A stretch of DNA of 64,000 bases from Strigamia acuminata (Eukaryota > Arthropoda > Chilopoda > Geophilomorpha > Linotaeniidae): the NCBI GenBank assembly GCA_949358305.1, contig OX442314.1, forward strand, positions 65,357,369 through 65,421,368, written 5' to 3'. This document shows positions 3,522 through 40,492 of this stretch, in pieces. Position numbers and translations under genes: made by a program. Each line of letters starts with the position of its first letter. Positions within the stretch are counted from its first letter, which is position 1. A model generated the notes under the pieces. That model was not told where the DNA came from. It did no database searches and saw only the letters and a program-made list of their open reading frames with translations.

Positions 3522-4153
3522 CACTAGAACGGCCGGAATTTCGGCCTACCTAGAACGGCCGAAACCGGTTAAAATGACCGGTTGCAATAACGTGAACAGT
3601 ACGTGCACCAAATGTGCAAAATACTTTTACAATACGTGCACAATACGTGTAAACAACGTTTTGGCATCAAATTGATTCAATAACACGCAAAATATGCGAA
3701 GAAAATACCAAAACAAAAATTGATGGTTATTATAAAACCTGATAAAATTAAATTTCCGTTTTTAATTTTATCAGATTTTATAAAAGCCATCAATTTTTGT
3801 TTTGGTATTTTCTTCGCAAGTTTCGCGTGTTACTGAATCAGTTTGATGCCAAAACGTTGTATGCACATATTGTGCACGTTTGGTGCACGTTTGGTGCACG
3901 TTTAGTGCAGTTTGGTGCACGTATTGTTCAGGTGATTTCAACCGGTCATTTTAACCGGTTTCGGCCGTTCTAGGTCAATTCACTTTTTTTTTATTATTTC
4001 TTAAGAAAAATTCAACTTTGGATGATTTATGACATAAAGCATCATAAATCAGCTAAAGTCACAAATTAGCAGCACCGTAAACCCATTGGGTTTATTGCTG
4101 CAGCTGTTTAAACAGCTGTTCCGGTCAAAATGACCGGTCTGGCCGTTCTAGTG
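3522..4153. mobile_element. Non-autonomous piggyBac-like foldback MITE in satellite
   Basis: A 632-bp non-satellite block interrupts a monomer precisely. It is flanked by TTAA on both sides (3518-3521 and 4154-4157), where the uninterrupted satellite has a single TTAA. The ends are inverted repeats, CACTAGAACGGCC and GGCCGTTCTAGTG. TTAA duplication plus short terminal inverted repeats is the hallmark of piggyBac-type transposition. There is no transposase ORF. Most of the interior is a large imperfect palindrome (about 3549-3974) whose arms carry a second copy of the tip, CTAGAACGGCC, at 3550 and 3963. Smaller hairpins lie at about 4021-4056 and 4099-4117. Family assignment rests on the target site and ends only. 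Confidence 0.85.
3549..3974. repeat. Long inverted repeat (inner foldback) of the MITE
   Basis: The left arm runs from CCTAGAACGGCCGAAACCGG and the right arm ends CCGGTTTCGGCCGTTCTAGG. The arms pair imperfectly over roughly 200 bp, meeting near TTTCCG at about 3755. Tandem GTGCAC-containing units occur in the right arm (about 3877-3920). As RNA this would form a long hairpin. Confidence 0.8.
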
Positions 4154-17527: not shown

Positions 17528-19099
17528 TGTTGCGAGCAAGAACGCAACAAAAAGATCTGGAGATTTCACGTTGTTTATTTTCTGAAAGAGAGAAAAGGCT
17601 TTTTAATTTTGTTGTCAAGTTTGAATAGATTTGCAACTCTTATCTGACATGTCCAGTTGGTTTGCTGCCTTGTTGTCACGATCCTGGAAGTTCAAGGGGG
17701 TTGTCACTTCGCTTGCCACACCTGGAATGTTTGGAAGTTGTGTTTTTAGTCTTTTGGCATTGTTTTATGTGTCTTTTTCACTTGTTTGTGTTATTTCTAG
17801 TATTTATAAGTTTTCTCCTGTTTCCAGTTCACTTGTGAGAGAGATAGGCGTGCATCGGCAAGATGGCCGCCATAGCATAAGTGAGCTGGGAAACAGGAGA
17901 ACTTGAAATAAGCACAATTGCAGTTTTAGTGCTTGTTTCACTGGTAATTTAATTTATACTAACTTGTATTGGTGTTTAAGGTAGTCCACAGGTGTCTTGG
18001 GTCGCTGGATGGACGTTGGACATCGTTTGTGAGCGTTTGCGAGCGTCGGGCGTGAGCGCACGCCTTGCGACGCCTCTCGTGGTCGTATGGGTCCTGCAAA
18101 TGAGTTGAATCGGTCGGGTTTCAATGTCCAAGCACTGGGAAAGTTGTACTGACCGTTCTAGGACGCAGATCCATCGTTGAGAAGGCCTGTGAGTCGCTCG
18201 CGACCTTGTCTGGCTCCATTCACGTCATTTTAGCAGTTGCATGGTCGCCATCTTAGATTTGGTGCTGCACTGGTGCCCTGTCATTGTTTCTTTTGGGGTT
18301 TTAATGGAACCTGGACATAGGGAATATTTACTAGTTATTGTTTGTATATTTACCAATATTAGTTGTTGTTAATCTAAGCGTTTACCTTTGTTATTGCATG
18401 GTTGTTAAGGGGTTAAAACTGTGACACGTTGCGCCCTCTTTTGGTGGTGATTGGGTTTGGGCTCAGCATTGTGTTTTGAGTGTAACTAATGTTAGTTTTA
18501 GCCTTTGAATTATTTGTTAAGTTTAAGTGAAGTGCTGTTTGCACAGGTCATACTGTTATCAAGGTGTTAGGTTAAGTTTTGTCTTTATTTATGTTAAGTT
18601 TGACATCTGTTGTAGATATACGGAAACCTTGTCGGCACTATTGTTATTATTCAAATCTGTATTGTTTGGTCACTGACATTTATTGTAATCAGGTGACCAG
18701 TTGTTAAGAGTAGGTTGCTAAAGAAGCAACAGTTGTTATCAGTTGTTAAGTATTAAAACCAGTTGATATTTTTCCTCCTTCTTTGGATAATTTATTCCTG
18801 TGTTTCTTTTACTTCAACATTCATGATGACTTGTGAGTAGAGAGCTTTGCCTGCTCTCCTCCTCCCTGGGAGCACGGAATTTCTACCCCGCAGCTAAAGA
18901 GGTTTTGCCAATCACTTCATCTAAATGCAGTCAGGCCTAGTTTCATGCAGTCAGGCCTAACCCTTCTTCAAGTTAGGCTTATGCTCAGAGAGAGGATTTC
19001 AACTTGTCTCTTCAACCACTATACAGTCTCGGGCGGTTTCCAGAGTTTGGTGACCAATTCGCCAGTTTTTTCCTGTGAGATCCAAGGTTGTTTGCTACA
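17528..19099 (+). repeat. BEL-A 5' LTR (1572 bp)
   Basis: Begins TGTTGCG and ends TTGCTACA. The first 22 bases form an inverted repeat, TGTTGCG...CGCAACA, with an 8-nt loop. The LTR carries two YY1/Pho-like elements: AAGATGGCCGCCAT at 17860-17873 and GTCGCCATCTT near 18244-18254. An ATTAAA polyadenylation-like hexamer lies near 18752. A 91-codon open frame inside is judged incidental because it is duplicated only as part of the LTR. Confidence 0.95.
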
Positions 19100-19112
19100 G
19101 GGAGCTGTTTTT

Positions 19113-19131
19113 TGGTGCCGTGACCAGGATT
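19113..19131 (+). other. BEL-A primer binding site, tRNA-His
   Basis: TGGTGCCGTGACCAGGATT lies 13 nt downstream of the 5' LTR. From memory it is a 19/19 complement to the 3' end of animal tRNA-His (acceptor stem GCCGTGA/TCACGGC, discriminator A, CCA). It would prime minus-strand cDNA synthesis. The other three BEL elements have interrupted versions of the same site. Confidence 0.85.
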
Positions 19132-19840: not shown

Positions 19841-22800
19841 ATGGCTACAGGAGGTGGATCAAGGTCAGGTTCAGGGAGAACAACGCCAACAACGGTTGAG
19901 CAACAACCGCCGGAAGAAATGGACGTGTTGTCTGGGAGGTTCACGACTTTGGGGATCTCTTTGGACGCGCTTTTGAGAAGGTCCTTGACACTAAAAGATA
20001 CCGGCGAGCTGGAAGCTGTAGAAATGGCTGCAGATGAACAGATGATGAGAATGATAAACGACCTGAACACGATGCAGCCCAATCTGACAAGAGATCAGTA
20101 CTTGGCAAATCTAAGGGAAATCGAAGAGTTAGAGACACCGATTTCGGTTCTTAAGCACAGAACCCGAATGTCAAAGAAGTTCGTGACGCATTGGTCAGCA
20201 AATCCAGCAAATGCTTCAGCGTTGACGACCAGTACGTCTCAGAGTTCGATTTTGAACCAGACCTTGTCGCAATCGACAAGAAGGCATAATAATGCAAAGC
20301 TTCCTAAGTTGGAAATGCGGAAATTCAATGGAGATGTGACGACATTTCGTCCCTTCCTAAGCAGCTTTGATTCTGCTGTTCACAGCAACCCTGATTTATC
20401 AGAAATTGAGAAGTTGCAATACTTGCAGTCGCTGTGCACGGGAGAAGCTGCCATGCTGATCTCTGCATTCCCTTTAGTGGACGGTAATTACAATTTGGCA
20501 AGAGAAGAGTTGGAACGTTCCTACGGGGACGATGAAGCCCAGAGAGTGGCATTGGTCAAGTCCATAAGGGATATGAGACAGGTTACGGAATTGCATCCGG
20601 TCAAAGCTGTCCGTACACAGTTGACCAAGGTGTCCACTGCTATCCGCTTGCTGGAGCAGTTGAGCGTTCCAGTACAGACTGCTGGTCTGCTTCTGGCACC
20701 CGACGTGCTGAGGAAATTTCCACCTGCCATGGTGATGAGGTTTTACCAGCAGCAAGGGGCTAAGACCTCAAATTTAGTGACAATCTTGAATTTTTTTGCG
20801 GCTGAAGTTCAGCTCTTGGAGCAGATGGAAGATGTCATGGGGGCAGGAGGTCTTGCAACTAAAAAAGACAAGTCTGGAAGTTCCGACAAGGATAAGGATC
20901 AACGCAAGGGCACGATGTCCACCTGCGCCACGTCCAAAAAAGCCAAAGAGTCTTTTAGCCCAAAGCTGACCGTGGGAAGCGCAATTTGCATTTTTTGCAA
21001 AGAAGGTCATGCTAACACTTTCTGTAGGAAGGAAATGAGCGTGGCAGAGAAGACCACGATCATTCAACAGAACCGACTTTGCTTCAATTGCCTGCAAGAA
21101 GGACACAGGGCAATGCGGTGCCAGGTTAAAACCAGCTGCAGGACTTGCGGCGGACGCCATCATTCGTCCATCTGCAGGAAATTGAACACAGGAAGTGGAG
21201 GTGGGATAGAGAAGCCCAAGGACGTGAGCGCGAACGTTTCCTTGGCGATCTCCTCAACACTTCAGTTGATGATATTCACAGCGGAGTTAAAAACAAAGTC
21301 TGGAGGTTCGCACGCGATACGTGGCATGTTAGATCCGGGCAGCCATCGGTCCTACATTTTAAAGAGTGTAGCCGACCGGATACGGTTGAAGAGTTGCGGG
21401 TCAATAGAAGCCACAGCCCAACGCCTCAATGAAGAGGATAATGCTGGATCGACGTCTTACGACGTTTACAAGCTACTCCTTCAGTCTAGACACGGAGCCA
21501 GAGAGCTCAAGGTGACGGCTTTAAGTGCAAGAAGCCTACCGCATGTGTATGGGATAGCCAGCCCTGATACCATTCAGAAGGTTAAAGATTTGGGGTTCGA
21601 ATTGGCTGAAGACTTACCTTCGACTGCAGGCAATGTTGATATCTTGCTTGGAGTTGATGTTTGGTGGGAAATCTGCCTTGACGGACGGAAACGTCTTGAT
21701 AACCGCTTGGGTTTGGTCAATACCATTTTTGGTTGGGTGTTGTCAGGAGCCGCTGGGTCGACAGATGTCTTCTCCGAGAGCTCGCGTGACGTTTCTTGCT
21801 GCAACACCTGTGAGATTAAGACTGACCGTGACTTGGAAAAGCTTTGGAGTCTGGAGGCTGTTGGAATTACAGCAGGCGAACGCGATTCAGATTTTGTTCG
21901 AGATCGCTTTGAGAAGTCGCACAAGCGAATGGAGGATGGTCGCTACCAGGTTTGCTTGCCCTTTAACGATAAGATCGGGGCTTTGGAGTCAAACTGGGAG
22001 TTGGCTCTGAACCAACTATCACATACGCTTAGGCGAATTGATAGTAACAGCGACCACAAGGAACGTTATAACAAAGCCATGTGGGACTACGTCAAGGAAG
22101 AGCACGCGGAAGTAGTACCTCTTGCAGAGAGATACAAGAAAACTGGAGTTTATGTTATTCCGCACCATCCAGTGATCAAGGAGGACCGGGAAACGACCAA
22201 GTTCCGTGTCGTTTTCAACGCGTCGTCGGCGAAGAAGGGGCTACCTTCGCTGAACGACTGTCTGTATCCTGGCCCTTCTTTAAATCCGGATATTGTCCCA
22301 GTTATGATCCGTTTTCGCCTTTTTTGTGTAGTGGCGATAGCAGACATCAAGCAGGCTTTCCTGCAAGTGCTGATTAATCCTGACCACTGCGATTTTTTGC
22401 GGTTCCTTTGGGTTTCAGAAGAATATTTCCAAGAAGGATATTCTTGGCAGAATTTGTGGGATCACCTGGTCGTTTTAAGAATGATAGTCGTCCCTTTCGG
22501 GGTGAATTCTTCGCCATTCTTGTTGTGCGCTGTCATCCGCGCGCAAGGGCGATTGTATTTGGTGCTTTTCCCCAAAGAGGCAGACGCCCTCGATAAGGGC
22601 ATCTACATGGACGACTTGACGTCCGGGGCCGATGGAACCCAAGAGACAGTTACGCACTGTGTCAATCTACGCAGGATCCTTGACGAGGGAAAGATGCCTC
22701 TCGTCAAGTGGGCATCATCAAAGGCAGATGTCTTTGACGCACTCAAAGACAAGGATTTCCACATGCGTGCAGACAAGTTTGAAGATCTAGGAGTTGTCAA

Positions 22801-25117
22801 GATGCTGGGCATCCTTTGGAGCGTCCAAGATGATACGCTAATGTTCAGGATCCCAACCGGTGTTGAGATTCCCCAGTCAAGGAGGGGCATTCTGTCATTA
22901 TTGGCATCAGTCTTCGACCCCTTGGGGTTGATAGCTCCAGTCATTTTGCGGATGAAGCTACTTTTACAGAGTATGTGGGGTCGCGACATCAAATGGGACG
23001 ACATAATCTCAGAAGAGAACCGAGAGATAGTGGCCAAATGGTACGCCGATCTTCAGCGCCTCACCGAAGCCCGGGTGAAGCGTTGGATGGGGACGTACTC
23101 GAGCCAAGAAATGGACATTGACGTCTTTTGCGACGCAAGTCCACAGGCGTACGGGTGCGCAATCTACGTTCGAGCTGCGTCAGGCGCGACCCAACTGCTC
23201 TTGAGCAAAAGCCGAATTGCCCCCACCACCAAATTGACTTTGCCACGCCTAGAATTGACCGCAACTGTTGTTGGAGTCCGGATGGTGGAGTACATCCTAG
23301 AGGATTTCCTACCAGGTTATCCAGTTGGGAAGATAAGGTATTACTCGGACTCAATGGTTGCGCTCGGGTGGTTGAAGTCTGATAAGAACAGGTGGAAGCC
23401 ATATGTCTCCAACAGAGTGGCAGAAGTTCTTGAAAAGTCAAGTCCGAGTCAGTGGGCATACGTCCCGACGGACAGGAATCCAGCGGACGTATTGACACGC
23501 CCATGCGAGGCAAAGAACCTTTTGGCCAACCGTCTCTGGTGGGACGGGCCCGGTCAGTTGGAAGACCTCGCGGACGAACCTGAGGACGTTGACCTCCCAA
23601 TGGAAGAGGCAAAAAAGGAAAAGGTAGCTTTGGTTGCGTCAGATGGAGAAGCGCATATGTGCGAGGTTTTCAAGCGATTTAGTAGTTTTAATCGCCTCGT
23701 GCGAGTTGTCGCGCTCATGCGGCGCTGGCTTCCTTTTTTCGCCCGCGGGAGGGACCTCGAGGTTCTCGAGATAGAAGTTGCCGAAGAAAGAGTCATCCGC
23801 TTGGCCCAGGTCTTGAGTTTTCCAGACGAAAGACAAGCCGCAATGTTGAAAGAGAAAGTGGCAAAGGGCTCTATCCTGAAAAATTTCGACGTTTTTCTGG
23901 ATGAGAGAGATTTACTAAGACTAAGGAGCCGTCTAGGGAAGTCAGCGCTTCCCTTCGACGAGGCATTTCCCATCATTTTACACCCGGATAGTTGGGTAAC
24001 AAGACTAATCATCAAGAAGGTCCACTTACAGCTCCTGCATGGTGAGCTGAGTGAGACGTTTTACCGGTTGAGAGACAAGTATTGGATTGTAAGAGGACGC
24101 CGAACGGTCAAGGCTGTGATCCGGAGTTGCTTGGTCTGCAAACGAGAGCGGTTGGAACGCAATAACCCAGCCACTGGTGACCCTCCTATGGAGCGCGTCA
24201 CGCCGGCAGCCCCGTTCCAGCATACAGGAATTGACCACCTCGGCCCTCTCACAGTCAAGCATAAGGAGAAAGGAAGAAAAGTCTATATTCTGTTGTTTAC
24301 CTGCCTAGTAACACGAGCGATCCATTTGGAAGTCTCTGAGAACCTTTCGGTGGAAAAGTTCCTTCTGGCCTTCCGTCGTTTCGGCGCCAGATTTGGGTAC
24401 CCGGCGAAAGTGTTCTCCGACAACTCCAAAACTTTCGAGCGAGGAAGCCAGGAGATACAGTCGTGGGGTAAATTGCTGACCAAGGATGGGATCCGGACGT
24501 TCCTTTCGGAGAAGAGAGTGGTTTGGTCGTTCATCCCACCATTGTCACCTTGGGCTGGAGGAGCCTGGGAGAGACTTGTGCGTTCGGTGAAAGATAAACT
24601 ACGTAAGATGCTGCTGCGTAGGACGGTAGACTTGGAGACGCTTCAGACGCTAGCCGTCGAGATAAGCTCCGTGCTTAACTCAAGGCCCCTGTCTTACGTG
24701 CATGAGGAGGTTGACGGCGGGAGAATTCTCAGCCCTGAGAACTTTCTCACTGGAGGAATGCCCAAGTGGGTTATCAACCGTCCACTGCACGCGATACAGA
24801 AGAAAGACCTACGGAGATTGGATAGAAAAAGACGACTTTTCATTTGGGAGTTCTGGCGGATTTGGCGCGAGAGTTACCTGAAACAGCTAAGAAATTTTCA
24901 TGAAGTCAAGGGTGACTCCCGTTTCAAGAATCCGGAAGTCGACCAGATAGTATTGTTGGAAAAGGTCGGCTGCAATCCGTACTTCTGGCCGCTGGCACGG
25001 GTCATCGAAGTCCTACCAGGCGAAGATGGTTTTGTGCGCGTCGTGAGAGTGGTTACAGCCAATGGAAAGGAATATCGACGCTCGGTCAAACACGTAAGGG
25101 CTTTGGAGCTGGACTAG
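19841..25117 (+). CDS. gag-pol: BEL-A gag-pol polyprotein (1758 aa)
   Basis: A single uninterrupted frame carries everything needed for retrotransposition. The N-terminal gag (about residues 1-380) has the DUF1759-like core (LPKLEMRKFNGD, then SLCTGEAAMLISAFP). CCHC/Cys-rich knuckles start at C383 and run to about 450. The DUF1758-type aspartic protease has DPGS with D498. The reverse transcriptase has YMDD at 922-925 and PFGVNSSPF upstream. RNase H has D1098 (VFCDAS) and PRLELTATV. The integrase has an HHCC domain, then D1465 (GIDHLGP), D1527 (FSDNSK) and E1577 (GGAWERL), followed by a C-terminal DUF5641-like domain ending RALELD. This order and the SPWAGGAWERLVR box are diagnostic of BEL/Pao. 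The length is normal for the family and no frame damage is visible. The start is the first ATG after the leader, MATGGG. Confidence 0.97.
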   Translation: MATGGGSRSGSGRTTPTTVEQQPPEEMDVLSGRFTTLGISLDALLRRSLTLKDTGELEAVEMAADEQMMRMINDLNTMQPNLTRDQYLANLREIEELETPISVLKHRTRMSKKFVTHWSANPANASALTTSTSQSSILNQTLSQSTRRHNNAKLPKLEMRKFNGDVTTFRPFLSSFDSAVHSNPDLSEIEKLQYLQSLCTGEAAMLISAFPLVDGNYNLAREELERSYGDDEAQRVALVKSIRDMRQVTELHPVKAVRTQLTKVSTAIRLLEQLSVPVQTAGLLLAPDVLRKFPPAMVMRFYQQQGAKTSNLVTILNFFAAEVQLLEQMEDVMGAGGLATKKDKSGSSDKDKDQRKGTMSTCATSKKAKESFSPKLTVGSAICIFCKEGHANTFCRKEMSVAEKTTIIQQNRLCFNCLQEGHRAMRCQVKTSCRTCGGRHHSSICRKLNTGSGGGIEKPKDVSANVSLAISSTLQLMIFTAELKTKSGGSHAIRGMLDPGSHRSYILKSVADRIRLKSCGSIEATAQRLNEEDNAGSTSYDVYKLLLQSRHGARELKVTALSARSLPHVYGIASPDTIQKVKDLGFELAEDLPSTAGNVDILLGVDVWWEICLDGRKRLDNRLGLVNTIFGWVLSGAAGSTDVFSESSRDVSCCNTCEIKTDRDLEKLWSLEAVGITAGERDSDFVRDRFEKSHKRMEDGRYQVCLPFNDKIGALESNWELALNQLSHTLRRIDSNSDHKERYNKAMWDYVKEEHAEVVPLAERYKKTGVYVIPHHPVIKEDRETTKFRVVFNASSAKKGLPSLNDCLYPGPSLNPDIVPVMIRFRLFCVVAIADIKQAFLQVLINPDHCDFLRFLWVSEEYFQEGYSWQNLWDHLVVLRMIVVPFGVNSSPFLLCAVIRAQGRLYLVLFPKEADALDKGIYMDDLTSGADGTQETVTHCVNLRRILDEGKMPLVKWASSKADVFDALKDKDFHMRADKFEDLGVVKMLGILWSVQDDTLMFRIPTGVEIPQSRRGILSLLASVFDPLGLIAPVILRMKLLLQSMWGRDIKWDDIISEENREIVAKWYADLQRLTEARVKRWMGTYSSQEMDIDVFCDASPQAYGCAIYVRAASGATQLLLSKSRIAPTTKLTLPRLELTATVVGVRMVEYILEDFLPGYPVGKIRYYSDSMVALGWLKSDKNRWKPYVSNRVAEVLEKSSPSQWAYVPTDRNPADVLTRPCEAKNLLANRLWWDGPGQLEDLADEPEDVDLPMEEAKKEKVALVASDGEAHMCEVFKRFSSFNRLVRVVALMRRWLPFFARGRDLEVLEIEVAEERVIRLAQVLSFPDERQAAMLKEKVAKGSILKNFDVFLDERDLLRLRSRLGKSALPFDEAFPIILHPDSWVTRLIIKKVHLQLLHGELSETFYRLRDKYWIVRGRRTVKAVIRSCLVCKRERLERNNPATGDPPMERVTPAAPFQHTGIDHLGPLTVKHKEKGRKVYILLFTCLVTRAIHLEVSENLSVEKFLLAFRRFGARFGYPAKVFSDNSKTFERGSQEIQSWGKLLTKDGIRTFLSEKRVVWSFIPPLSPWAGGAWERLVRSVKDKLRKMLLRRTVDLETLQTLAVEISSVLNSRPLSYVHEEVDGGRILSPENFLTGGMPKWVINRPLHAIQKKDLRRLDRKRRLFIWEFWRIWRESYLKQLRNFHEVKGDSRFKNPEVDQIVLLEKVGCNPYFWPLARVIEVLPGEDGFVRVVRVVTANGKEYRRSVKHVRALELD

Positions 25118-25169: not shown

Positions 25170-25998
25170 TGTTGCGAGCAAGAACGCAACAAAAAGATCT
25201 GGAGATTTCACGTTGTTTATTTTCTGAAAGAGAGAAAAGGCTTTTTAATTTTGTTGTCAAGTTTGAATAGATTTGCAACTCTTATCTGACATGTCCAGTT
25301 GGTTTGCTGCCTTGTTGTCACGATCCTGGAAGTTCAAGGGGGTTGTCACTTCGCTTGCCACACCTGGAATGTTTGGAAGTTGTGTTTTTAGTCTTTTGGC
25401 ATTGTTTTATGTGTCTTTTTCACTTGTTTGTGTTATTTCTAGTATTTATAAGTTTTCTCCTGTTTCCAGTTCACTTGTGAGAGAGATAGGCGTGCATCGG
25501 CAAGATGGCCGCCATAGCATAAGTGAGCTGGGAAACAGGAGAACTTGAAATAAGCACAATTGCAGTTTTAGTGCTTGTTTCACTGGTAATTTAATTTATA
25601 CTAACTTGTATTGGTGTTTAAGGTAGTCCACAGGTGTCTTGGGTCGCTGGATGGACGTTGGACATCGTTTGTGAGCGTTTGCGAGCGTCGGGCGTGAGCG
25701 CACGCCTTGCGACGCCTCTCGTGGTCGTATGGGTCCTGCAAATGAGTTGAATCGGTCGGGTTTCAATGTCCAAGCACTGGGAAAGTTGTACTGACCGTTC
25801 TAGGACGCAGATCCATCGTTGAGAAGGCCTGTGAGTCGCTCGCGACCTTGTCTGGCTCCATTCACGTCATTTTAGCAGTTGCATGGTCGCCATCTTAGAT
25901 TTGGTGCTGCACTGGTGCCCTGTCATTGTTTCTTTTGGGGTTTTAATGGAACCTGGACATAGGGAATATTTACTAGTTATTGTTTGTATATTTACCAA
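25170..25998 (+). repeat. BEL-A 3' LTR, first part (829 bp)
   Basis: Matches 17528-18356 of the 5' LTR. It is interrupted after TTTACCAA by BEL-B; CCAA (25995-25998) is the left target duplication of that insertion. Confidence 0.95.
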
Positions 25999-27355
25999 TG
26001 TTGCTAGCAACATAAAGGAAAGTTGCTAAACGTCTTAAAAATTAGTCATCTGGAATTATTAAAAAGGGTTTTTAATATTTATCTTAGATTGGGAATTTAA
26101 TTAGGCACTTATCTGAATATAAGTCTTCTTTGAGTTAGTTTGAGTGAATTTCTCAGTACTGGTTGATCTGACCGGATAAATCTGGGAAGAAAAGAGTTTT
26201 ACATTAGTTATTTTTCCACTTAGAATTTATTTTCTATCTTGTTTACCTGTGTTATACATGTTTTGATGTTTCCAAGTGTTTTCCTGTTTCCAGTCCACTA
26301 CTGTCAATGTAGTGACAAGGTGTAGTGATGCTTTCAGACAGCAAAAGTGTACTAGAATGAGAAATGTATGTTATTATCAGTTTTAAGCTGTTTCAATCAA
26401 TTTCTGTGAGTTTTCTGTATATTACTAACCAATTAAGCGTTTTGTTAACTTAGATTGTGTGTAGCCTGTCTAGTGAGCTAATTTCAAGCCTTTTTATCCT
26501 CCTGCAAGTGATCTCTGTTTACATTGTCGGCCATTACTGTGGGAGTGGTCTACTTGTATCTGTAAAGAGAGGAGATAATGTTTAATCCCAAAGAGTTTTT
26601 GTGGGTTCTGATTAATAATTAATCACTTAATTATTATGCAATGTAAAAGTGTTAAGTTTAAGATTTATCTGTGTTGATTTATAACTTAACTTCTGCACTT
26701 ACTGTAAAGTTGCCAGCTCATTGGTCTAAAATGTCTTTACTTATTCTTTTCTCTATTTTATGAGTTGTTCAGTGTGTTTTAGAGTGAATAATTTAGTTCT
26801 CAATGAGCATTGTGTTTAGAGACTGTTGTTAATGTATACTTTTGCATTTAATGTCAAATACTTGCTGTTAGGCTTATGTGTTTTCAACTATTAACTTCTA
26901 CGGTAGTTTTGTTGTGCCAGCAGTACTTATTTCTCTTTACAAGCACTTAGAGACCTCTGTAACTTTAAGTGCAAGTGTCCTTATACAATGTGGAGATAGT
27001 TACACTTGTTGTTTCTTATTATTGTTAAAGTGTGACTTCTTTGTAAAATCCTCGTGATTCAATTGTAGTAGTGTTGTTAAGAATTTAGAGAATAAAATGG
27101 TTGCTTTTTATTTCTCTCCAAGTCTCATTTCTCTATACAACCAGAAAGCAATGTGCAGTGAGTAGAAAAATCCTCCTTCCTCCTCCTTGAACTCACCAGT
27201 GGCAGATCATCATGTGAAGCAGCAAGTTCAAGTCCAGTGTTTGCATTTCTTCAAGTCTTTGGCCAACTTCTGTGTATCAATTTTAGCCAAGCAGCAGTCA
27301 AGTATTGCCGCCCCTCCTTCTGGCCTGGTTGTCGCCTGCGACCTTGCCAGAAACA
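25999..27355 (+). repeat. BEL-B 5' LTR (1357 bp)
   Basis: Starts with the perfect 14-bp palindrome TGTTGCTAGCAACA and ends AGAAACA. An AATAAA polyadenylation hexamer lies at 27091-27096. It is AT-rich relative to the ORF. No gene lies within; small open frames near its 3' end (27187 onwards) are judged incidental. Confidence 0.95.
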
Positions 27356-27358
27356 ATT

Positions 27359-27378
27359 TGGTACCGTGAACCAAGGAT
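27359..27378 (+). other. BEL-B primer binding site, interrupted tRNA-His type
   Basis: TGGTACCGTGAACCAAGG lies 3 nt after the LTR. Aligned to the BEL-A site it has one substitution (A for G) and two single-A insertions. It keeps the TGGT start, CCGTGA and CCA/AGGATT blocks, so pairing with tRNA-His would include bulges. Confidence 0.6.
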
Positions 27379-27644
27379 TTCTTCCAGTTATCTCAGTGGA
27401 CCTTCATGTGTGCTGCAAAATTCATCAGTGGGTTTTGTTCTCAAGCTGTGCAAAGCTTTTATGTGTAAAGTGCCATTGAAGCTGTGCCACTACAGTGAAG
27501 TGTATGCTCTCGTCCGCCTTTCACAGGCAAAAAAGTGGGTTTTTCAAGTTGGATTCTCAAATTGTCAAGATGGTCAAGAGGTTTTTCAACTTGGATCAAG
27601 CAAGGCTTCGAGAGTACGAGCGATCCTGCACGACAATCAATTCC

Positions 27645-27662
27645 AAACACAACGCAATGTAC
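27645..27662 (+). promoter_or_regulatory. Conserved leader motif, BEL-B copy
   Basis: AAACACAACGCAATGTAC, about 286 nt after the PBS start. It is shared by an element that lacks RT and integrase, as expected of a cis-acting RNA signal used for mobilisation in trans. Confidence 0.6.
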
Positions 27663-28166
27663 ATCCTACAAGAAGATTTGAAGAAATAATTATTAAGAAT
27701 TATTATTTAAATAGAATAATATCCGAATTTGCTGCTGTAATCATTTCAAAAGAGTTTTTGATTAGAAACTGGTGTAGTTGGGGGGAGAAGAAGTTTAAGT
27801 CTTAACAGTTTGAATAAATTCTCGATTCCAGTTTGTGGAATTTAGAGAATATCCAGTGAATTAGTGAATAATACTAAGCTTTAGTGTTGGTATCCCAATT
27901 TAAAACGAGTATCTAGTCAGAAACTCAATTGTGAAAATAAGAGAATTGTCAATTACCTTTAATTATTGAATTTTGGGGGTTAATTTGCCAATCCTTTTAA
28001 CATCTCGTGTGTTTCAATCCTGTTAACAGCTTGTGGATATCCATCCTGTTTTTGTGTGTTCAGTAAATCCTAGAGTGTAAAAGAATTAGACAAATTCTTG
28101 TTAACCAATTTAGTCAGTTAAGTTGAGTTTGAATCCTGAACTGATCCTTGAATTCTTCATTTCTCG

Positions 28167-31100
28167 GTGAGGATTATGGCTACATTATCCGCTGCTGATC
28201 TCGAGGAAAAGGAGGTCATTTGGAAAGCAAAGGCTCAAGGAGCCGAGGATCTGCTGGGATCTTCAGTCAACATTCTAGACGGAGGAGAGCTGGAAGCCAT
28301 GCAAATAACGGTTGACCAGCAATTGAGTGATCTCGCCGACGAATTGAAAGCTCTTAAAGACGAGTCAAAAAGAGAGGACTATTTAGCAGGGCTTCAACGA
28401 ATTGAAGACATTAGAACCAGAGTTAATTTATTGAAACAAAGAGCCAAAGTGTCTGGAAAAATGGCAGGGCAATTTGGTTCCCATCCGGGACAGAATTCCA
28501 GTTTAAACCAGACGTCCGCTTCATCTAGGAGAAACACGAGATTGCCGAAAACCGACATTGCCAAATTTAGTGGCGATGCAACTGAATATAGAGGTTTTGC
28601 GAATTTATTCGAATCAGCAGTTGATCAGAACACGGAGCTTTCGAACGTGGAAAAGCTTATATATCTGAGGTCATGCTGCACTGGGGCTGCAGAATCCGCA
28701 ATCAAGTCGTACCCGATAACTGATGACGCCTACCCATTAGCGAAAAATACATTGGAGAGTCTATTCGGATCTGAAAACACGCAGAGAAATGCGATTTCAA
28801 AGATGATTAGGGAGTCGAAACCCGTTTTCGATCTCTACCCAATCGAGCCACTCAAAGCTCTATTCACGTCATTGGCATCTGCTGTCCGGACCATGGCGCA
28901 ACTGTCTGTGTCAGTTGACACTACTGGAACGTACCTTATTCCAGAACTACTTAGAAAATTTCCACCGGAGATCTCCCAACGTTTTTACCGAAAGCATCAA
29001 GGAAAAGTTGATGATGTTAACGTTTTTCTGGACTTCGTAGCAACCGAGATACAACTGGCTGAATTGTCGGAAGAAAGCGTTCTCCTTAAGCGCGCTCATC
29101 TGAAGAAGTCAGAAAAATTTGAGAAAACTTCAAAGGAAACAAGAGAAAGACCAACTGGAACCATGTCCTCATTCGTGACTTCCGAGAATGGAAAATTGAG
29201 TATGAATTCCAAGTCGAATCCAAACCGCAAACCCGCTTGCGCTTATTGTGATGGTGATCACGCACACGCAAACTGTGACGCCGATCTAGATGTACCGGCG
29301 AGGATCGAAATAGTGAAGAAGAAACGACTTTGTTTCAACTGCTTGAGATATAACCACACAGCCAAAGAATGTACCGTGAAGTTTTGTTGTCGCTTGTGTG
29401 GTGGAAGACATCACACATCGATCTGCAACAAAAACAACAAAGAAAAAGCGATTACACCAAAAGAAGAAAACGTGTCTACTAATGTATCGCTTACCGAGTC
29501 GGTGGAGATTCAACTGATGGTCTTCACTGCTCTTTTTGTGAAGAAAAATGGAGACATGTACCCCGTCCGCGGATTACTAGATCCAGGAAGCCATCGCTCC
29601 TACGTCACGAAGAGACTAGTAAATAAATTCCGGATGCAAAAGATCGAGACACTACACACGATGACACAGTGTCTGCTCAACAAAAAGCCAGTTCCGACGA
29701 CACATGATGTCTTTAGATTCGAACTACAATCAAGACACGGAACAAAAAAGACATCAATCCTTGCATTAGAAACCGACACACTCCCGAAAGTCAAAGGGAT
29801 AATTGGAGCAGAAGCCATAAAGCAGGTCCAATCACTCGGACTTGAGATGGCTGAGATACATCCGTCAGAATCGGAAGACATTGACGTCTTATTAGGAAGC
29901 AACGCATGGTGGAAGATTTGTCAAGGTGGAAGCCGAAAAATCAACGACGAGTTGGGATTAATGCAGACAATTTTTGGGTGGATTCTAAACGGTCGACTGA
30001 GACCAAACAACCCGCTTGAAGAAAACATGGCAGCGTGCAACATTTCTTGCATGGCGGTCGAGTCCAAAGAAGAAGTGATCTCAAATCAACCTGAAAATGA
30101 CGAAAACAAAATAGTCCAGTTAATTCCGAAATCACCGTCCGACATGAATGGCGAACCCGGTGTGAATAAACAGACAGACGTCACACTTTCTTGTTTTGCC
30201 GCGAGCCTCTCCAGTGGTCTGGAGAAAGAGGAACTGGATACCACCCTCCAAAAAACGAAAAAGTCGTTCAAGGATGGAGGATTGGCCAACAGAACTTCAA
30301 GCTCGGACATGAAGCCGGAATTACGAGGGCGAAATCAGTCGGAGTCACTGAGAAAGAAAGCAAACCAAGTGCCCAGTTTACCCAAATTGTGTGCAATCTT
30401 GAGATGGACCGGAGAATTGATTTTCAATTTCTGGAAAAAGAAAAATGTCTTATCGAACAATCAAAGAGGAATTCACCTTATCCTTGGTCCAATGTATGCC
30501 GGGAAAACGACCAAGTTATTGAAGATCTTAGAAAAAGAAGAGAAGACGTCGTCCTTGCTCATTAAGCACTCCAATGACGAACGTTACAGTAAATCCGACG
30601 TCGTGACCCACGATGGTCATCGACGAGAAGCAATCGCGACCAGTAGCCTAACCAATGCTGTGAAAAAAACGAAATTAATGAAGACAATCGGAATTGATGA
30701 AGGACAGTTTTTTCCCGACATTTTTACTTTTTCAAATGAAATGGCTGAGCAAAAGAAAAAGGTAATAGTCGCCGCATTAGACGTCGACTTCAAGAGGAAG
30801 CCATTTGATCAGATATCCAAGTTAGTTCCACTAGCCGAGTCTGTTGTGAAACTACAAGCAAAATGTTATTTTTGCGGAGATAAAGCTGAATTTTCAAGAC
30901 GAATTTCGCACGAAACCAGAGTCAAGATGATAGGAGGGATCGACAAATACAAACCAACCTGTCGAGTATGTTTCTCAAAGCCCATGAAGTCCCTAGAGAC
31001 GAAAAGGAAAATCATCAACGGAATTATTCGACTTAGTTGTATGATTGTCAACCGAAGAATACCTCCGTGGATACCAAATTTGATCCGTCAAAGAATCATG

Positions 31101-31181
31101 CCACCCAGAGTGGAATACAAAAAAGTGAAAGAGGTCTCCCAAATATTATCATCAAAGACCAGAATTAATCAAACTAAATGA
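28167..31181 (+). CDS. Gag-protease-thymidine kinase fusion polyprotein (1004 aa)
   Basis: Residues 1 to about 350 are BEL gag: LPKTDIAKFSGDATEYRGF and SCCTGAAESAI match the DUF1759-like region. Cys/His knuckles start at C358 and extend to about 425 (CFNCLRYNH, CGGRHHTSIC). The protease follows with D472 in LLDPGSHRS. Similarity to BEL pol ends near G609 (TIFGWILNG), before any RT motif. After a charged linker (about 610-766) comes a TK1-type thymidine kinase, about 767-945. Its P-loop is GPMYAGKT (774-781). The DEGQFF box has D844 and the presumed catalytic E845. A lasso/nucleotide-site segment resembles the TK1 signature (FKRKPF, LVPLAESVVKL). Zinc ligands are C900/C903 and C932/C935. About 60 basic residues follow. 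The family phosphorylates thymidine to dTMP. There is no intron, stop or frameshift. One oddity is Val in ALDVDF, where TK1 proteins usually have Gly. Activity is inferred. Confidence 0.93.
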   Translation: MRIMATLSAADLEEKEVIWKAKAQGAEDLLGSSVNILDGGELEAMQITVDQQLSDLADELKALKDESKREDYLAGLQRIEDIRTRVNLLKQRAKVSGKMAGQFGSHPGQNSSLNQTSASSRRNTRLPKTDIAKFSGDATEYRGFANLFESAVDQNTELSNVEKLIYLRSCCTGAAESAIKSYPITDDAYPLAKNTLESLFGSENTQRNAISKMIRESKPVFDLYPIEPLKALFTSLASAVRTMAQLSVSVDTTGTYLIPELLRKFPPEISQRFYRKHQGKVDDVNVFLDFVATEIQLAELSEESVLLKRAHLKKSEKFEKTSKETRERPTGTMSSFVTSENGKLSMNSKSNPNRKPACAYCDGDHAHANCDADLDVPARIEIVKKKRLCFNCLRYNHTAKECTVKFCCRLCGGRHHTSICNKNNKEKAITPKEENVSTNVSLTESVEIQLMVFTALFVKKNGDMYPVRGLLDPGSHRSYVTKRLVNKFRMQKIETLHTMTQCLLNKKPVPTTHDVFRFELQSRHGTKKTSILALETDTLPKVKGIIGAEAIKQVQSLGLEMAEIHPSESEDIDVLLGSNAWWKICQGGSRKINDELGLMQTIFGWILNGRLRPNNPLEENMAACNISCMAVESKEEVISNQPENDENKIVQLIPKSPSDMNGEPGVNKQTDVTLSCFAASLSSGLEKEELDTTLQKTKKSFKDGGLANRTSSSDMKPELRGRNQSESLRKKANQVPSLPKLCAILRWTGELIFNFWKKKNVLSNNQRGIHLILGPMYAGKTTKLLKILEKEEKTSSLLIKHSNDERYSKSDVVTHDGHRREAIATSSLTNAVKKTKLMKTIGIDEGQFFPDIFTFSNEMAEQKKKVIVAALDVDFKRKPFDQISKLVPLAESVVKLQAKCYFCGDKAEFSRRISHETRVKMIGGIDKYKPTCRVCFSKPMKSLETKRKIINGIIRLSCMIVNRRIPPWIPNLIRQRIMPPRVEYKKVKEVSQILSSKTRINQTK

Positions 31182-31192
31182 TGGGTTGTTCG

Positions 31193-31216
31193 CACTTTCT
31201 TTTCGCCGGCAATCTA
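31193..31216 (+). other. BEL-B 3' terminal tract (PPT position)
   Basis: CACTTTCTTTTCGCCGGCAA plus TCTA lies between the stop codon and the 3' LTR. Like BEL-A it is a pyrimidine run followed by a GCCGGCA core, with no polypurine run. Confidence 0.6.
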
Positions 31217-32573
31217 TGTTGCTAGCAACATAAAGGAAAGTTGCTAAACGTCTTAAAAATTAGTCATCTGGAATTATTAAAAAGGGTTTTTAATATTTAT
31301 CTTAGATTGGGAATTTAATTAGGCACTTATCTGAATATAAGTCTTCTTTGAGTTAGTTTGAGTGAATTTCTCAGTACTGGTTGATCTGACCGGATAAATC
31401 TGGGAAGAAAAGAGTTTTACATTAGTTATTTTTCCACTTAGAATTTATTTTCTATCTTGTTTACCTGTGTTATACATGTTTTGATGTTTCCAAGTGTTTT
31501 CCTGTTTCCAGTCCACTACTGTCAATGTAGTGACAAGGTGTAGTGATGCTTTCAGACAGCAAAAGTGTACTAGAATGAGAAATGTATGTTATTATCAGTT
31601 TTAAGCTGTTTCAATCAATTTCTGTGAGTTTTCTGTATATTACTAACCAATTAAGCGTTTTGTTAACTTAGATTGTGTGTAGCCTGTCTAGTGAGCTAAT
31701 TTCAAGCCTTTTTATCCTCCTGCAAGTGATCTCTGTTTACATTGTCGGCCATTACTGTGGGAGTGGTCTACTTGTATCTGTAAAGAGAGGAGATAATGTT
31801 TAATCCCAAAGAGTTTTTGTGGGTTCTGATTAATAATTAATCACTTAATTATTATGCAATGTAAAAGTGTTAAGTTTAAGATTTATCTGTGTTGATTTAT
31901 AACTTAACTTCTGCACTTACTGTAAAGTTGCCAGCTCATTGGTCTAAAATGTCTTTACTTATTCTTTTCTCTATTTTATGAGTTGTTCAGTGTGTTTTAG
32001 AGTGAATAATTTAGTTCTCAATGAGCATTGTGTTTAGAGACTGTTGTTAATGTATACTTTTGCATTTAATGTCAAATACTTGCTGTTAGGCTTATGTGTT
32101 TTCAACTATTAACTTCTACGGTAGTTTTGTTGTGCCAGCAGTACTTATTTCTCTTTACAAGCACTTAGAGACCTCTGTAACTTTAAGTGCAAGTGTCCTT
32201 ATACAATGTGGAGATAGTTACACTTGTTGTTTCTTATTATTGTTAAAGTGTGACTTCTTTGTAAAATCCTCGTGATTCAATTGTAGTAGTGTTGTTAAGA
32301 ATTTAGAGAATAAAATGGTTGCTTTTTATTTCTCTCCAAGTCTCATTTCTCTATACAACCAGAAAGCAATGTGCAGTGAGTAGAAAAATCCTCCTTCCTC
32401 CTCCTTGAACTCACCAGTGGCAGATCATCATGTGAAGCAGCAAGTTCAAGTCCAGTGTTTGCATTTCTTCAAGTCTTTGGCCAACTTCTGTGTATCAATT
32501 TTAGCCAAGCAGCAGTCAAGTATTGCCGCCCCTCCTTCTGGCCTGGTTGTCGCCTGCGACCTTGCCAGAAACA
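31217..32573 (+). repeat. BEL-B 3' LTR (1357 bp)
   Basis: Same length and, where compared, same sequence as 25999-27355. It is followed by the CCAA target duplication and the remainder of the BEL-A LTR. Confidence 0.95.
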
Positions 32574-32577
32574 CCAA

Positions 32578-33320
32578 TATTAGTTGTTGTTAATCTAAGC
32601 GTTTACCTTTGTTATTGCATGGTTGTTAAGGGGTTAAAACTGTGACACGTTGCGCCCTCTTTTGGTGGTGATTGGGTTTGGGCTCAGCATTGTGTTTTGA
32701 GTGTAACTAATGTTAGTTTTAGCCTTTGAATTATTTGTTAAGTTTAAGTGAAGTGCTGTTTGCACAGGTCATACTGTTATCAAGGTGTTAGGTTAAGTTT
32801 TGTCTTTATTTATGTTAAGTTTGACATCTGTTGTAGATATACGGAAACCTTGTCGGCACTATTGTTATTATTCAAATCTGTATTGTTTGGTCACTGACAT
32901 TTATTGTAATCAGGTGACCAGTTGTTAAGAGTAGGTTGCTAAAGAAGCAACAGTTGTTATCAGTTGTTAAGTATTAAAACCAGTTGATATTTTTCCTCCT
33001 TCTTTGGATAATTTATTCCTGTGTTTCTTTTACTTCAACATTCATGATGACTTGTGAGTAGAGAGCTTTGCCTGCTCTCCTCCTCCCTGGGAGCACGGAA
33101 TTTCTACCCCGCAGCTAAAGAGGTTTTGCCAATCACTTCATCTAAATGCAGTCAGGCCTAGTTTCATGCAGTCAGGCCTAACCCTTCTTCAAGTTAGGCT
33201 TATGCTCAGAGAGAGGATTTCAACTTGTCTCTTCAACCACTACACAGTCTCGGGCGGTTTCCAGAGTTTGGTGACCAATTCGCCAGTTTTTTCCTGTGAG
33301 ATCCAAGGTTGTTTGCTACA
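32578..33320 (+). repeat. BEL-A 3' LTR, second part (743 bp)
   Basis: Continues the BEL-A LTR from TATTAGTTGTTG to TTGCTACA and matches 18357-19099. It differs from the 5' LTR at 33243 (C for T). It is followed by GTGA and resumption of the satellite. Confidence 0.95.
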
Positions 33321-33685
33321 GTGATGAGATCAAAAGTCTATTCTCCCAAATCATTGATTGGATGTTTCTAAAACTTACATTGGAGCCTTCTACTAAGGTT
33401 TAAACACTATTTCTGAACATTCAGAGACATTGGACTTGTGGTGTTTGTGCTAAGTCAACTGTGATTAGATCAAAAGTCTATTCTCCCAAATCATTGGTTG
33501 GATGTCTCTAAAACTTACATTGGAGCCTTCTACTAAGGTTTAAACACTATTTCTGAACATTCAGAGACATTGGTCTTGTGGTGTTTGTGCTAAGTCAACT
33601 GTGATGAGATCAAAAGTCTATTCTCCCAAATCATTGGTTGGATGTTTCTAAAATTTACATTGGAGCCTTCTACTAAGGTTTAAAC
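33321..33685. repeat. Satellite segment between BEL-A and BEL-C
   Basis: 365 bp of the same 140-bp satellite, in phase with the sequence left of BEL-A. It ends at the BEL-C target AAAC (33682-33685). Confidence 0.95.
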
Positions 33686-34446
33686 TGTTGCGAGCACGCG
33701 CAACATGGATTTTTTGCTATCGCAATAGCGGATTTGCTTGAATTGATCAATTATTTAAGTTTGTGTTTAGTTAATAGTGCAGCTTAAGTTTTGGCTAAAT
33801 GTTAAATGAATTTCGTGTAGTTTGTGACGTGGGAGTTATGTTTTACCTGATTTAAGCTGTCTTTCTTAAGGTAATCTTGTATTTTTCCTTTGATTCTTTG
33901 GAGTTTTACTGCTTGGATTCGTCCAAAGAGTCGCTGCTGTTAGTTCCTAAGTTAGTTCATTTATTTGAAACACTTTGGCTTAATGTATTACGGTTTTGTG
34001 CCTTTTGTAATGATTTTATACTTGAAACTGTGTATTTTCTTGTATACGCTTTATCATTTTGTCACTAGAGGGACAATTCGCCTCTTGCGAGTGATTGTTG
34101 CCACTCGTTGCTCTAATTGTTGTAGGTTGCGCAGCAACTACACTGTGACTGTTATGTAGATTTCTAGGGTTAAGATATGTAATTTTCTCCTCTCTTTTCT
34201 GTGTACTTTTGATAGATATTAACTTTACATTAAATTCGGTTTGTTTATGTGTTATTTGGCATATTAGTGGTGAGTTCTTCCAGACACTTATTAGGCCACT
34301 TTGCACGGATTTCAAGCAGGATTTCTCCTGCAATGCATCATCTCTTTTGGAGCTCATCACAAGTTCTAGTAAGTAGGTTTATTTGTTATAAGCTTTTTCT
34401 GTTGTCTTCTAGAGTGCCACACGGCCACAAAGCATTGCTAGAAACA
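33686..34446 (+). repeat. BEL-C 5' LTR (761 bp)
   Basis: Starts TGTTGCG with its inverted copy CGCAACA after a 6-nt spacer, and ends GCTAGAAACA. The last bases resemble the BEL-B LTR end (CCAGAAACA). Confidence 0.95.
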
Positions 34447-38000: not shown

Positions 38001-38744
38001 TAGGTCTGGGTCAACGCATTCATTCCCTTATTTTAAATTTTTCTTGTTTTCTAGAAAAGGGTCGTCCTTAATAGTTTATTAAGTTTGAGTTCGCAGCTCG
38101 TGTTTTCGTGCGGACGGAGGTTTCCGTGGCACGTTGCCACTTGAGCGCTGGCTCGAGGACAACGAGGCGGTGAAGCCTGCCGTGTCTCAAGTTTGTTCTT
38201 TTTTGCGTTTCAAGTTTCTTCTAGTCTTCATGTATGTCATGTTCCTTGCGAGGCCATGCTCGATCAAGAGTTTTTGTCACAGTTTTCCTTTTTTCGACGA
38301 CGTTTAGTTTTCGGTTCTGAGACTTCTAACCTCGGTGTTTGGTTGGACGATTGTTTTGGACCAGCGCCTTTCCTCTCTGACAAGGATTTCTGTTCTCCCA
38401 TTTTTAGTTTCCGTTTAGTTTAAGCGTCTGTCTACGGGTTGACAGACTGAGTTTTCGGACAAGCTCCCGCAATAATCTCACGTCGTTTTGGTTAGAAAAC
38501 CCCTTCAGTCGGATTTTCTGAAGGTTCTTGCGTGTGCGCCACGTGTCTATTGGCGACGCCGTAGCCCCTTGGTGTCTGGACTAGGTCATCATGGCACGGC
38601 CCTTCTCTTTCTTCTCTCGTGTTCTAAGTTTCTTTTAGTGTCTATGGTTTTGCCTTCGCGACTTTCACAAAGTCAAGCTTGGCTTCGATACTTTTTCTTT
38701 CCGTGCTCTTGGTTTTGATGGGGAATTCCTTCAAAAGTTTTCTG

Positions 38745-38777
38745 CCTTGCCTTCCCTTCTTCTTTGGCCGGCAACGC
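38745..38777 (+). other. BEL-C 3' terminal tract (PPT position)
   Basis: A long pyrimidine run (CCTTGCCTTCCCTTCTTCTT) followed by TGGCCGGCAACGC directly abuts the 3' LTR. It shares the pyrimidine plus GGCCGGCA layout with the other BEL elements. Confidence 0.6.
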
Positions 38778-38963
38778 TGTTGCGAGCACGCGCAACATGG
38801 ATTTTTTGCTATCGCAATAGCGGATTTGCTTGAATTGATCAATTATTTAAGTTTGTGTTTAGTTAATAGTGCAGCTTAAGTTTTGGCTAAATGTTAAATG
38901 AATTTCGTGTAGTTTGTGACGTGGGAGTTATGTTTTACCTGATTTAAGCTGTCTTTCTTAAGG
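38778..38963 (+). repeat. BEL-C 3' LTR, first part (186 bp)
   Basis: Matches 33686-33871. It ends in AAGG (38960-38963), the left target duplication of BEL-D. Confidence 0.93.
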
Positions 38964-40434
38964 TGTTGCGGTCAGTCAACAGGAACAGAGAAGAACTGAG
39001 ATGTGGCGATTCGAAACTCCCGCCAACAAACTCAAACGATCGTATAGTGAAATTCGTACGTGTACCGTGTGGAAATGCACTTGATTCGCCTCAAAATCTC
39101 CTGTTACATGAAGGTTTAACTGTTGGAAACACTTTTGCATGGTATCCAAAGTGTTTGCTGATCCATTGGCCAGTCTGGGAAAATGGTTTTCTACTCAGGA
39201 CACATTGGAAATGGGTCAAAAGCAGAAAAGGTAAGAGTTAACATTAACACGACTATTTTAATCAAATATAAAATGGCAACTCAATAATTACACATTATCA
39301 ATCAAAAGGCACGCAACAAGCCAATTGTCGTCAAAGTACAATAAAGAAAATACTCCGTTGCCACGGAACGGAGGAAATGCAATTTCAAGCAAAGACAACA
39401 AATTACGAGAAATGTATTAAAAATAATGTGTAATAGCTCAAAATGAGCACAAAAAACTCAGGAATAATAAAGTCTATCGTAACAACAAAATTCGTTAATC
39501 AAAACACTGAGAAAACAGCGAAAACAGTGATCGCTAGGCAGACAATTGGGCCTAACCAATCAAAGACAAGCAAAATGACATAATCATCAAGTTTGAATTC
39601 AAAGTCACACACAAAACCAAATAAGTAAAGATTTTGCATTGAAATACATTAAAACTAAATAGTACTAACACCAATTGAGATATAAAAACAAAGCGACATG
39701 AAAGATTTACAAATCATCGGCAAAATCCAACATGGCGTCCGGTAAACTCTACATTGGCGGCAAAACACAAGGTTTGAATTTCAACACAAGAAATAACTTA
39801 TGTAAACACTTTGAAATAAGTAAATAAGTTCAGGGAATGTAATTTCCCGCAAAACAAGACACTTTTTAATGAAAGAACACTTGAAATCAACCGCAAACCG
39901 AACGAAACGATCTTGGACGGCAACGCACATGCGGGGTCCGTCACGATCGCTCGTAGCAGAAAAACGGCTGTTCCGGGACGAAATTAGAGTGCACGAATCA
40001 ACAGATCACCCCCAAATTAGTCTAAAACAATGTCAAAAACAATTCTAACCATCAAAATTCCATCCAAACGGAAGGTTAGAAGTTTGAACAAAAACCGAAC
40101 TAGAACTTGAAATATGACGTCACGTCAATAACACTAGTGAACTGTTCAACGACAAATGCACCAAATTTCACCCGAAATCACACAAATTGATAGAAAATGA
40201 ATAAAGTAACACAAAATCACGCAATAAACACTAGAAATAAATGCAATAAACAATGGAATATCACATTTCATCAAACATCAGTATCTGAAAGCACTAAAAA
40301 CATTTTAATAATGCAAAAATCCTTTAAATAAAAACTGAAATGTTATGCAAAATAAAACACACTTTGGAAACATTTATTCAGACACAAATTGGCAATAAAA
40401 GTAGTTTCTAAATTATTCCACGTTGTTTGCAACA
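38964..40434 (-). repeat. BEL-D 3' LTR (1471 bp)
   Basis: Read on the minus strand it begins TGTTGCAAACAACG and ends ACCGCAACA. It contains a perfect CRE-like palindrome TGACGTCA (40115-40122). A 92-codon plus-strand frame here (38963-39241) recurs in the other LTR and is antisense to the element, so it is not called. Confidence 0.95.
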
Positions 40435-40477
40435 ACGAATTGCCAGCGAGAAAGAGAGAGAAGAGAGATGAGAGAAG
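40435..40477 (-). other. BEL-D 3' terminal tract (PPT position)
   Basis: In element orientation a CTCTCTTCTCTCTCTTTCTC-type pyrimidine run leads into GCTGGCAATTCGT and then the LTR. The coding strand is pyrimidine, not purine. Confidence 0.6.
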
Positions 40478-40492
40478 TCTGCAAAACACACA

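Follow-up and report, generated by a model that had tools for sequence, protein, structure and literature searches.

A non-autonomous BEL/Pao element lineage with a thymidine kinase in the place of pol in the centipede Strigamia acuminata

In a 64,000-nucleotide stretch of the genome of Strigamia acuminata (contig OX442314.1, positions 65,357,369 to 65,421,368 of the forward strand; hereafter the window), we describe a long terminal repeat (LTR) retrotransposon, the TK element, at positions 25999-32573. Its single open frame encodes, in this order, gag, zinc knuckles, protease, a linker and a thymidine kinase (TK) of the TK1 type. No match to reverse transcriptase (RT), RNase H or integrase was found in this frame with Pfam, whose RT models were also silent on the neighbouring element E, and, since the linker and kinase stand in the place of these domains, we file the TK element on its sequence as a non-autonomous BEL/Pao derivative and not as an autonomous member. 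This agrees with the initial annotation of the window, in which the part of a BEL/Pao element after the protease was said to be replaced by a TK1-type kinase: a TK1 profile match is present and Pfam pol domains are not. As the probable explanation, we propose a BEL/Pao lineage that would depend on complete elements of the E type as helpers in trans and that would keep a selected thymidine kinase for the supply of deoxythymidine triphosphate (dTTP) to its complementary DNA (cDNA) synthesis.

Anatomy of the TK element and its kinase

The LTR pair of the TK element is identical throughout (0 differences over 1357 bp, of which the repeat finder had displayed 300 bases only), has TG...CA termini and is flanked by a 4-bp target site duplication. 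Between the LTRs, the frame at 28167-31181 is open for 1004 codons from a GTG start, as initially annotated, with the first ATG at 28176, which gives a eukaryotic protein of 1001 residues. That its gag and protease are BEL-type is evident from a DUF1759 match at residues 134-275 (E-value 2e-17), from an alignment with element E that extends through an IFGWxLxG motif, and from the gag-protease tree. Two further Pfam matches, to ATPases, are sub-threshold and overlap the kinase. In the same run, the frame of element E (19841-25117) matched Peptidase_A17, Integrase_H2C2 and DUF5641. A scan of the window for tRNA genes found none. The features of the TK element are as follows.

25995-25998, plus strand: target site duplication CCAA, 5' copy, within the 3' LTR of element E
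25999-27355, plus strand: 5' LTR, 1357 bp, TG...CA, identical to the 3' LTR
27357-27369, plus strand: primer-binding-site (PBS)-like motif TTTGGTACCGTGA directly after the 5' LTR, also in element E (19111-19123) and family B
28176-31181, plus strand: gag-protease-linker-thymidine kinase frame, 1001 codons from ATG
28566-28991, plus strand: DUF1759 part of gag (Pfam)
29238-29426, plus strand: three cysteine-histidine knuckle-like motifs (by eye)
29574-29603, plus strand: aspartic protease motif LLDPGSHRSY with D472, aligned with element E and families B and D
29970-30470, plus strand: junction, with IFGWILNG (29970-29993) as the last motif in common with element E, then a fast-evolving linker where element E goes into RT
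30471-30974, plus strand: TK1-type kinase domain, with P-loop (30486-30509), DEGQFF (30696-30713) and zinc cysteines (30864-30875 and 30960-30971)
30975-31178, plus strand: C-terminal tail past the Pfam TK match, predicted helical, its first part common with family B
31190-31216, plus strand: stretch ahead of the 3' LTR, like those of family B and element E (by eye)
31217-32573, plus strand: 3' LTR
32574-32577, plus strand: target site duplication CCAA, 3' copy

Pfam TK (PF00265) matches residues 769-936 over profile positions 3-176 of 176 (E-value 2e-53; 181 bits against a cut-off of 20.6), and a comparison with human TK1 structures gave a best E-value of 7e-42. The P-loop GPMYAGKT (774-781), DEGQFF (844-849, including E845), the cysteines C900, C903, C932 and C935, and D472 in the DPGS of the protease all lie where the initial annotation had placed them. 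Here, we take the P-loop, the catalytic glutamate in DEGQFF and the four zinc cysteines to have the roles that they have in TK1. In an AlphaFold model, the kinase core has a predicted local distance difference test (pLDDT) score mostly above 90 and lies 1.0 Å from human TK1 (1xbt), with a target TM-score of 0.95. Moreover, the P-loop lysine, DEGQFF and the zinc cysteines are retained in 12 aligned sequences of families A (that of the window) and B, the stretch from copy L046 stopping before the last two cysteines. From its sequence and model, we predict with considerable confidence that the kinase is catalytically active. Weighing against the proposed explanation are a P-loop of GLMYAGKT instead of GPMYAGKT in two of seven aligned A kinases, an insertion of about 1.1 kb (5146-6221) that interrupts the kinase of A copy L030, and, in family B, a threonine at the position of a human TK1 aspartate that is presumably an active-site residue.

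Copies, ancestry of the fusion, and selection

To place the TK element in the genome, we relied on searches of which only the best-scoring candidates were scored, and all copy counts given here are lower bounds. With gag-protease as query, 85 of 1288 candidates were scored, comprising 51 of family A (97-100% identity to the window) and 34 of family B (57-58%). Full-length frames of 995-1013 codons hold 77 of these 85 matches (47 A, 30 B), and in all 77 a full TK profile match adjoins the gag match (positions compared by eye). A one-off chimera is rejected by these frames. Among 150 scored of 205 candidates from a TK profile search, 92 were assigned as gag-linked and 58 as stand-alone by frame length and score, with a check of sequence in the fetched copies only. 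In the LTR search, 40 of 122 candidates were scored, and 36 of them make 18 pairs, with equal scores within the pair in 16; the two unequal pairs lie on C127 (1 difference) and at C8:6954287/6959505. At C8:6954287-6963587, two A elements appear to have the middle LTR in common, in a tandem arrangement. The LTRs differ at 0 of 1357 positions in the window copy, 0 of 1358 in L013 and 1 of 1358 in L030, and the partial pairs of L023 (1212 bp) and L009 (950 bp) are identical. The target duplications differ in all three copies examined (CCAA, ACCC and GTTGA). The copies are recent, RNA-mediated retro-insertions; segmental duplication is rejected by the differing target duplications and the 16 equal-scoring LTR pairs. 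Two apparent larger TK fusions on C130, with open frames of 1118 and 1999 residues, were discarded, as these frames cross stretches of N. At L041, the TK frame of a family B variant (B') lies closely downstream of a partial BEL pol frame (3-2321 and 3099-5540), probably as nested or truncated elements and, less probably, as parts of a joint one.

Families A and B align across gag, knuckles, protease and IFGWxLxG, and in both a linker leads on to the kinase and to a tail past the Pfam TK match, with identities of 59% in gag-protease, 25% in the linker, 55% in the kinase and 51% over 41 residues of the tail. In the kinase tree, the A and B kinases form one clade (97/95). Because gag-protease and kinase have diverged about equally, and because the extra C-terminal tail is common to both families, the alignment indicates that gag and kinase were fused once, long ago, before A and B split. 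The initial annotation had likened the element to the gag-onc fusions of transducing retroviruses. While the layout fits this parallel, the history does not: a gag-onc fusion is a young one-off, and the TK fusion is older than the split of two families that now share 59% of their gag-protease residues.

A third BEL-like family without pol, D, has a hydrophobic, membrane-segment-like C-terminus and no kinase (L036, 3-2468, minus strand, and L039; C14, about 38100-43347, lying between direct repeats that match at 99.3% over 576 bp or more). One close copy of it was found among 71 matches scored of 1284 candidates. After IFGWxLxG, element E continues into RT, whereas families A, B and D continue into a linker with a similar start. 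Since the junction of D likewise lacks pol and is followed by no kinase, the loss of pol may have preceded the gain of the kinase; alternatively, D may have lost the kinase. In the gag-protease tree, a clade with 100/100 support unites A, B, D and E, with no settled order among them.

We estimated omega, the ratio of non-synonymous to synonymous substitution rates (dN/dS), by Nei-Gojobori counting with codon bootstrap intervals, using YN00 as a second method. Between B and B' (L041), omega is 0.12 (0.07-0.18) for the kinase, 0.14 for gag-protease and 0.39 (0.24-0.64) for the linker. For the window copy of A, the kinase and linker values are 0.15 (0.06-0.34) and 0.72 (0.36-1.78) against L013, and 0.22 (0.10-0.41) and 0.50 (0.28-0.91) against L043; with L042, which is nearly identical to L043, the kinase value is 0.21. 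The kinase is thus under purifying selection in the three informative pairs (omega 0.12-0.22). Several values temper this result. YN00 gives higher kinase values (0.24 for A-L013, 0.38 for A-L043), and the kinase and linker intervals overlap in A-L043. Moreover, in very recent pairs with tiny counts, kinase omega reaches 0.83 (A-L023) and 0.69 (A-L044), and B against L047 has 2 non-synonymous and 0 synonymous kinase differences, again a tiny count. The checks named in the initial annotation, which were a match of the kinase segment to TK1 profiles, further intact copies in the genome and dN/dS of the kinase, have in this way come out in its favour, with PF00265 at 181 bits, the 77 full-length frames each with a TK match, and low ratios in the three informative pairs.

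Element E and the question of a helper

The TK element of the window sits within the 3' LTR of element E, a candidate helper with the following features.

17524-17527 and 33321-33324: target site duplication GTGA
17528-19099, plus strand: 5' LTR
19841-25117, plus strand: gag-pol frame of 1758 residues with BEL/Pao-type pol domains
25170-25998, plus strand: first part of the 3' LTR, with the TK element inserted in it
32578-33320, plus strand: second part of the 3' LTR; both parts together differ from the 5' LTR at 1 of 1572 positions

Among five BEL elements with gag-pol that were compared (E and four others), E is closest to families A, B and D in gag-protease, at 38-39% identity, the other four being at 21-25%. 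Just after the 5' LTR, both A and E carry the motif TTTGGTNCCGTGA without mismatch (when the window was shuffled 100 times, two matches with no more than one mismatch arose in two of the shuffles). Family B carries this motif too, and the LTR starts and the stretch ahead of the 3' LTR are, by eye, similar in A, B and E. An open frame of 1770 codons is present in 26 of 87 E rows, and E subfamilies are 68-100% identical in the searched segment. On the chromosomes, we took as a zone all positions no more than 0.5 Mb from a copy of A or B, so that these copies set its limits; it makes up 15.0 of 224.4 Mb (6.7% of the chromosomes). Of 70 placed E-type loci, 66 fall in this zone, compared with 2 of 145 other BEL loci, which came from the 150 top-scoring of 1068 candidates. 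For this count, rows from unplaced contigs were set aside (for A and B, 16 of 85; for E, 16 of 87; for other BEL, 5 of 150), and two rows of one E locus were merged.

Taken on these sequence comparisons, E-type elements are likely to be the helpers of the TK elements. The way in which the zone was defined and the other BEL rows were chosen counts against this reading, as does the comparison of the A and E LTRs, which gave no overall alignment but short terminal motifs only (best match 26 bp, 88%, E-value 5e-4). Co-location of E and TK elements could, in addition, come from accumulation in heterochromatin and not from a common integrase.

As to the setting, the TK element is found within 2 Mb of the end of chromosome 1, amid tandem repeats of about 140 bp. 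Arrays of this repeat, perhaps a centromeric or pericentromeric satellite, occupy 1-3526, 4154-17529, 33318-33737 and 48707-56246 of the window. Zones common to TK and E-type elements, and largely avoided by other BEL elements, are seen at 64.6-66.5 Mb of C1, 12.3-15.6 Mb of C5, 6.8-7.9 Mb of C8, 0.1-1.4 Mb of C9 and 7.5-10.3 Mb of C13, by its length the Y chromosome. The Y chromosome holds 19 of the 85 A and B rows.

A possible role for the kinase, and comparison with known systems

We picture the system as follows. The element, having lost RT, RNase H and integrase, has the kinase in their place, in one frame with gag and protease, and encodes its own Gag, protease and kinase. Complete E-type elements, one of which is the element hosting the insertion, would supply reverse transcription and integration in trans. 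As the kinase sits in one frame with Gag without a frameshift, one kinase would be made per Gag, which may allow it to be packaged, and it would probably be released by the protease. It would then phosphorylate thymidine to its monophosphate (dTMP) and thereby raise the dTTP level for cDNA synthesis, whether inside the particle or in the cell at large, at times of low host TK. Because little TK1 is present in cells that are not in S phase, it is in resting cells that a kinase brought along would count most; large DNA viruses carry a TK for a similar reason. That dTTP supply is the benefit for which the kinase was kept is, judging from sequence, about an even bet. We put forward only tentatively, as somewhat doubtful, the fuller picture of a two-part partnership, in which E would give RT and integrase, and A and B would give Gag, protease and a particle-borne thymidine kinase fuelling cDNA synthesis outside S phase, the partners keeping to common chromosome zones and having lasted through the divergence of the two TK families and of the E subfamilies.

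The synthesis of one kinase per Gag in a single frame would also suit a kinase domain that serves as a structural or nucleoside triphosphate (NTP)-binding part of Gag during assembly or the release of RNA and has ceased to act on thymidine. The extra tail, predicted to be helical in A and kept at 51% identity between A and B over 41 residues, fits such a role. However, retention of the P-loop lysine, DEGQFF and zinc cysteines in the aligned A and B sequences, along with a predicted fold 1.0 Å from human TK1, makes this unlikely.

The other TKs of the genome bear on whether the host or host cell, rather than the element, is the main beneficiary of the kinase. Stand-alone intronless TK genes occur in large dispersed repeats, of which, by frame length and score, 40 of the 150 rows scored in the TK profile search belong to a type C1 (L022, L032, L033, L037 and L038), 13 to C2 (L011, L012, L016-L018 and L020) and 5 to C3 (L014, L015 and L026). 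The C1-type repeat exceeds 20 kb and resembles the C2 type in the TK frame only (79% DNA identity over 523 bp, omega 0.13), and the stand-alone TKs are 48-56% identical to the family A kinase. In a further search, each of the 150 thymidine-kinase places scored of 199 candidates has a single open frame that covers almost the entire domain (in one case with an internal stop), and no intron-bearing thymidine kinase is among these 150. S. acuminata, to judge from these sequences, may rely on multicopy intronless TKs. Such findings, both the near-complete intronless domains and the presence of stand-alone families, would suit multicopy TK loci, retroelement copies included, that provide thymidine salvage under selection at the level of the host. 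Yet the kinase is fused to gag-protease in 77 full-length frames and has been co-mobile with it since before the A/B split, the genome already has stand-alone TKs, selection on gag-protease in these copies is of similar or greater strength, and 49 of the 199 candidates are unscored. We therefore regard host salvage as improbable.

A passive passenger, in which pol was lost and a kinase caught by chance hitch-hikes without function on helper-driven spread, is very improbable: some very recent pairs do lack constraint, but, these excepted, a degenerate passenger is rejected by kinase omega of 0.12-0.22 (upper bounds below 0.42 in three pairs, and below the adjoining linker), with 77 of 85 frames full length.

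Concerning the origin of the kinase, the best database match is at 50% identity; the nearest of known source are animal TK1s, from Acropora at 49% and Ischnura at 42%, and a virus, Kaumoebavirus, stands at 37%. The initial annotation had looked to a tree to decide between a host and a viral donor. The tree unites the A and B kinases and sets them outside a 37-row cluster of proteins, but places no donor; its bootstrap had not converged, several of its long branches are uncertain, and P0002 and five A and B copies that were nearly identical or truncated had been omitted. A viral donor is not supported by these sequences. No gag-fused kinase was found elsewhere in a word-based search, which can miss relatives, among proteins of about 552-1757 residues, the sole match being a Trypanosoma congolense thymidine kinase of 849 residues.

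With BEL/Pao elements, element E among them, the TK element has in common a DUF1759 gag, knuckles, a DPGS protease, a single long frame and LTRs, and with element E also the PBS-like motif; it differs in that the protease is followed by a thymidine kinase, and RT, RNase H and integrase are missing. In gag-onc retroviruses and maize Bs1, as here, a captured gene of cellular type is fused to gag where pol stood. There, the captures are of recent date and do not have to benefit the element, in contrast to the TK capture, which is old, is selected and is found in at least 77 full-length frames. The TR-GAG elements of plants are gag-only and non-autonomous, and so resemble the TK element in a kept gag and dependence on a helper; to our knowledge, these plant elements carry no captured enzyme, which sets the TK element apart. 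Another comparison is with LTR elements and retroviruses that bear a dUTPase, an enzyme that shapes the nucleotide pool of reverse transcription. There too, an enzyme of nucleotide metabolism follows the protease, but it lies between protease and RT, as described for Juno, Vesta and TelKA of bdelloids (PMC5408684), whereas that of the TK element replaces pol and is a kinase with a different fold. A host-type enzyme fixed in an LTR-element lineage is likewise found in Ty3/Gypsy elements of orchids, which have an AlkB RNA demethylase (PMC9289625, abstract), though these are 25-kb elements with an additional frame, and the abstract describes no replacement of pol. A term search of a BEL/Pao survey (PMC3118150) gave no mention of kinase or dUTPase, the main text of the Strigamia maritima genome paper does not mention thymidine, and no retroelement with a thymidine kinase was found by title or start of abstract in the openly licensed PMC literature searched. 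Captured enzymes in LTR elements are known, then, and no thymidine kinase, nor one standing in for pol, turned up in the literature searched.

The dUTPase-bearing LTR elements point to an importance of the nucleotide pool for reverse transcription. If our explanation is true, nucleotide supply itself can be a selected trait, the polymerase having been dropped and the thymidine kinase kept, and a non-autonomous element may contribute to its helper and not only exploit it. The TK element would be a natural case for asking whether retrotransposition in the germ cells or non-dividing cells of an animal is limited by dTTP, and it shows that pol can be replaced by a captured enzyme gene that then persists.

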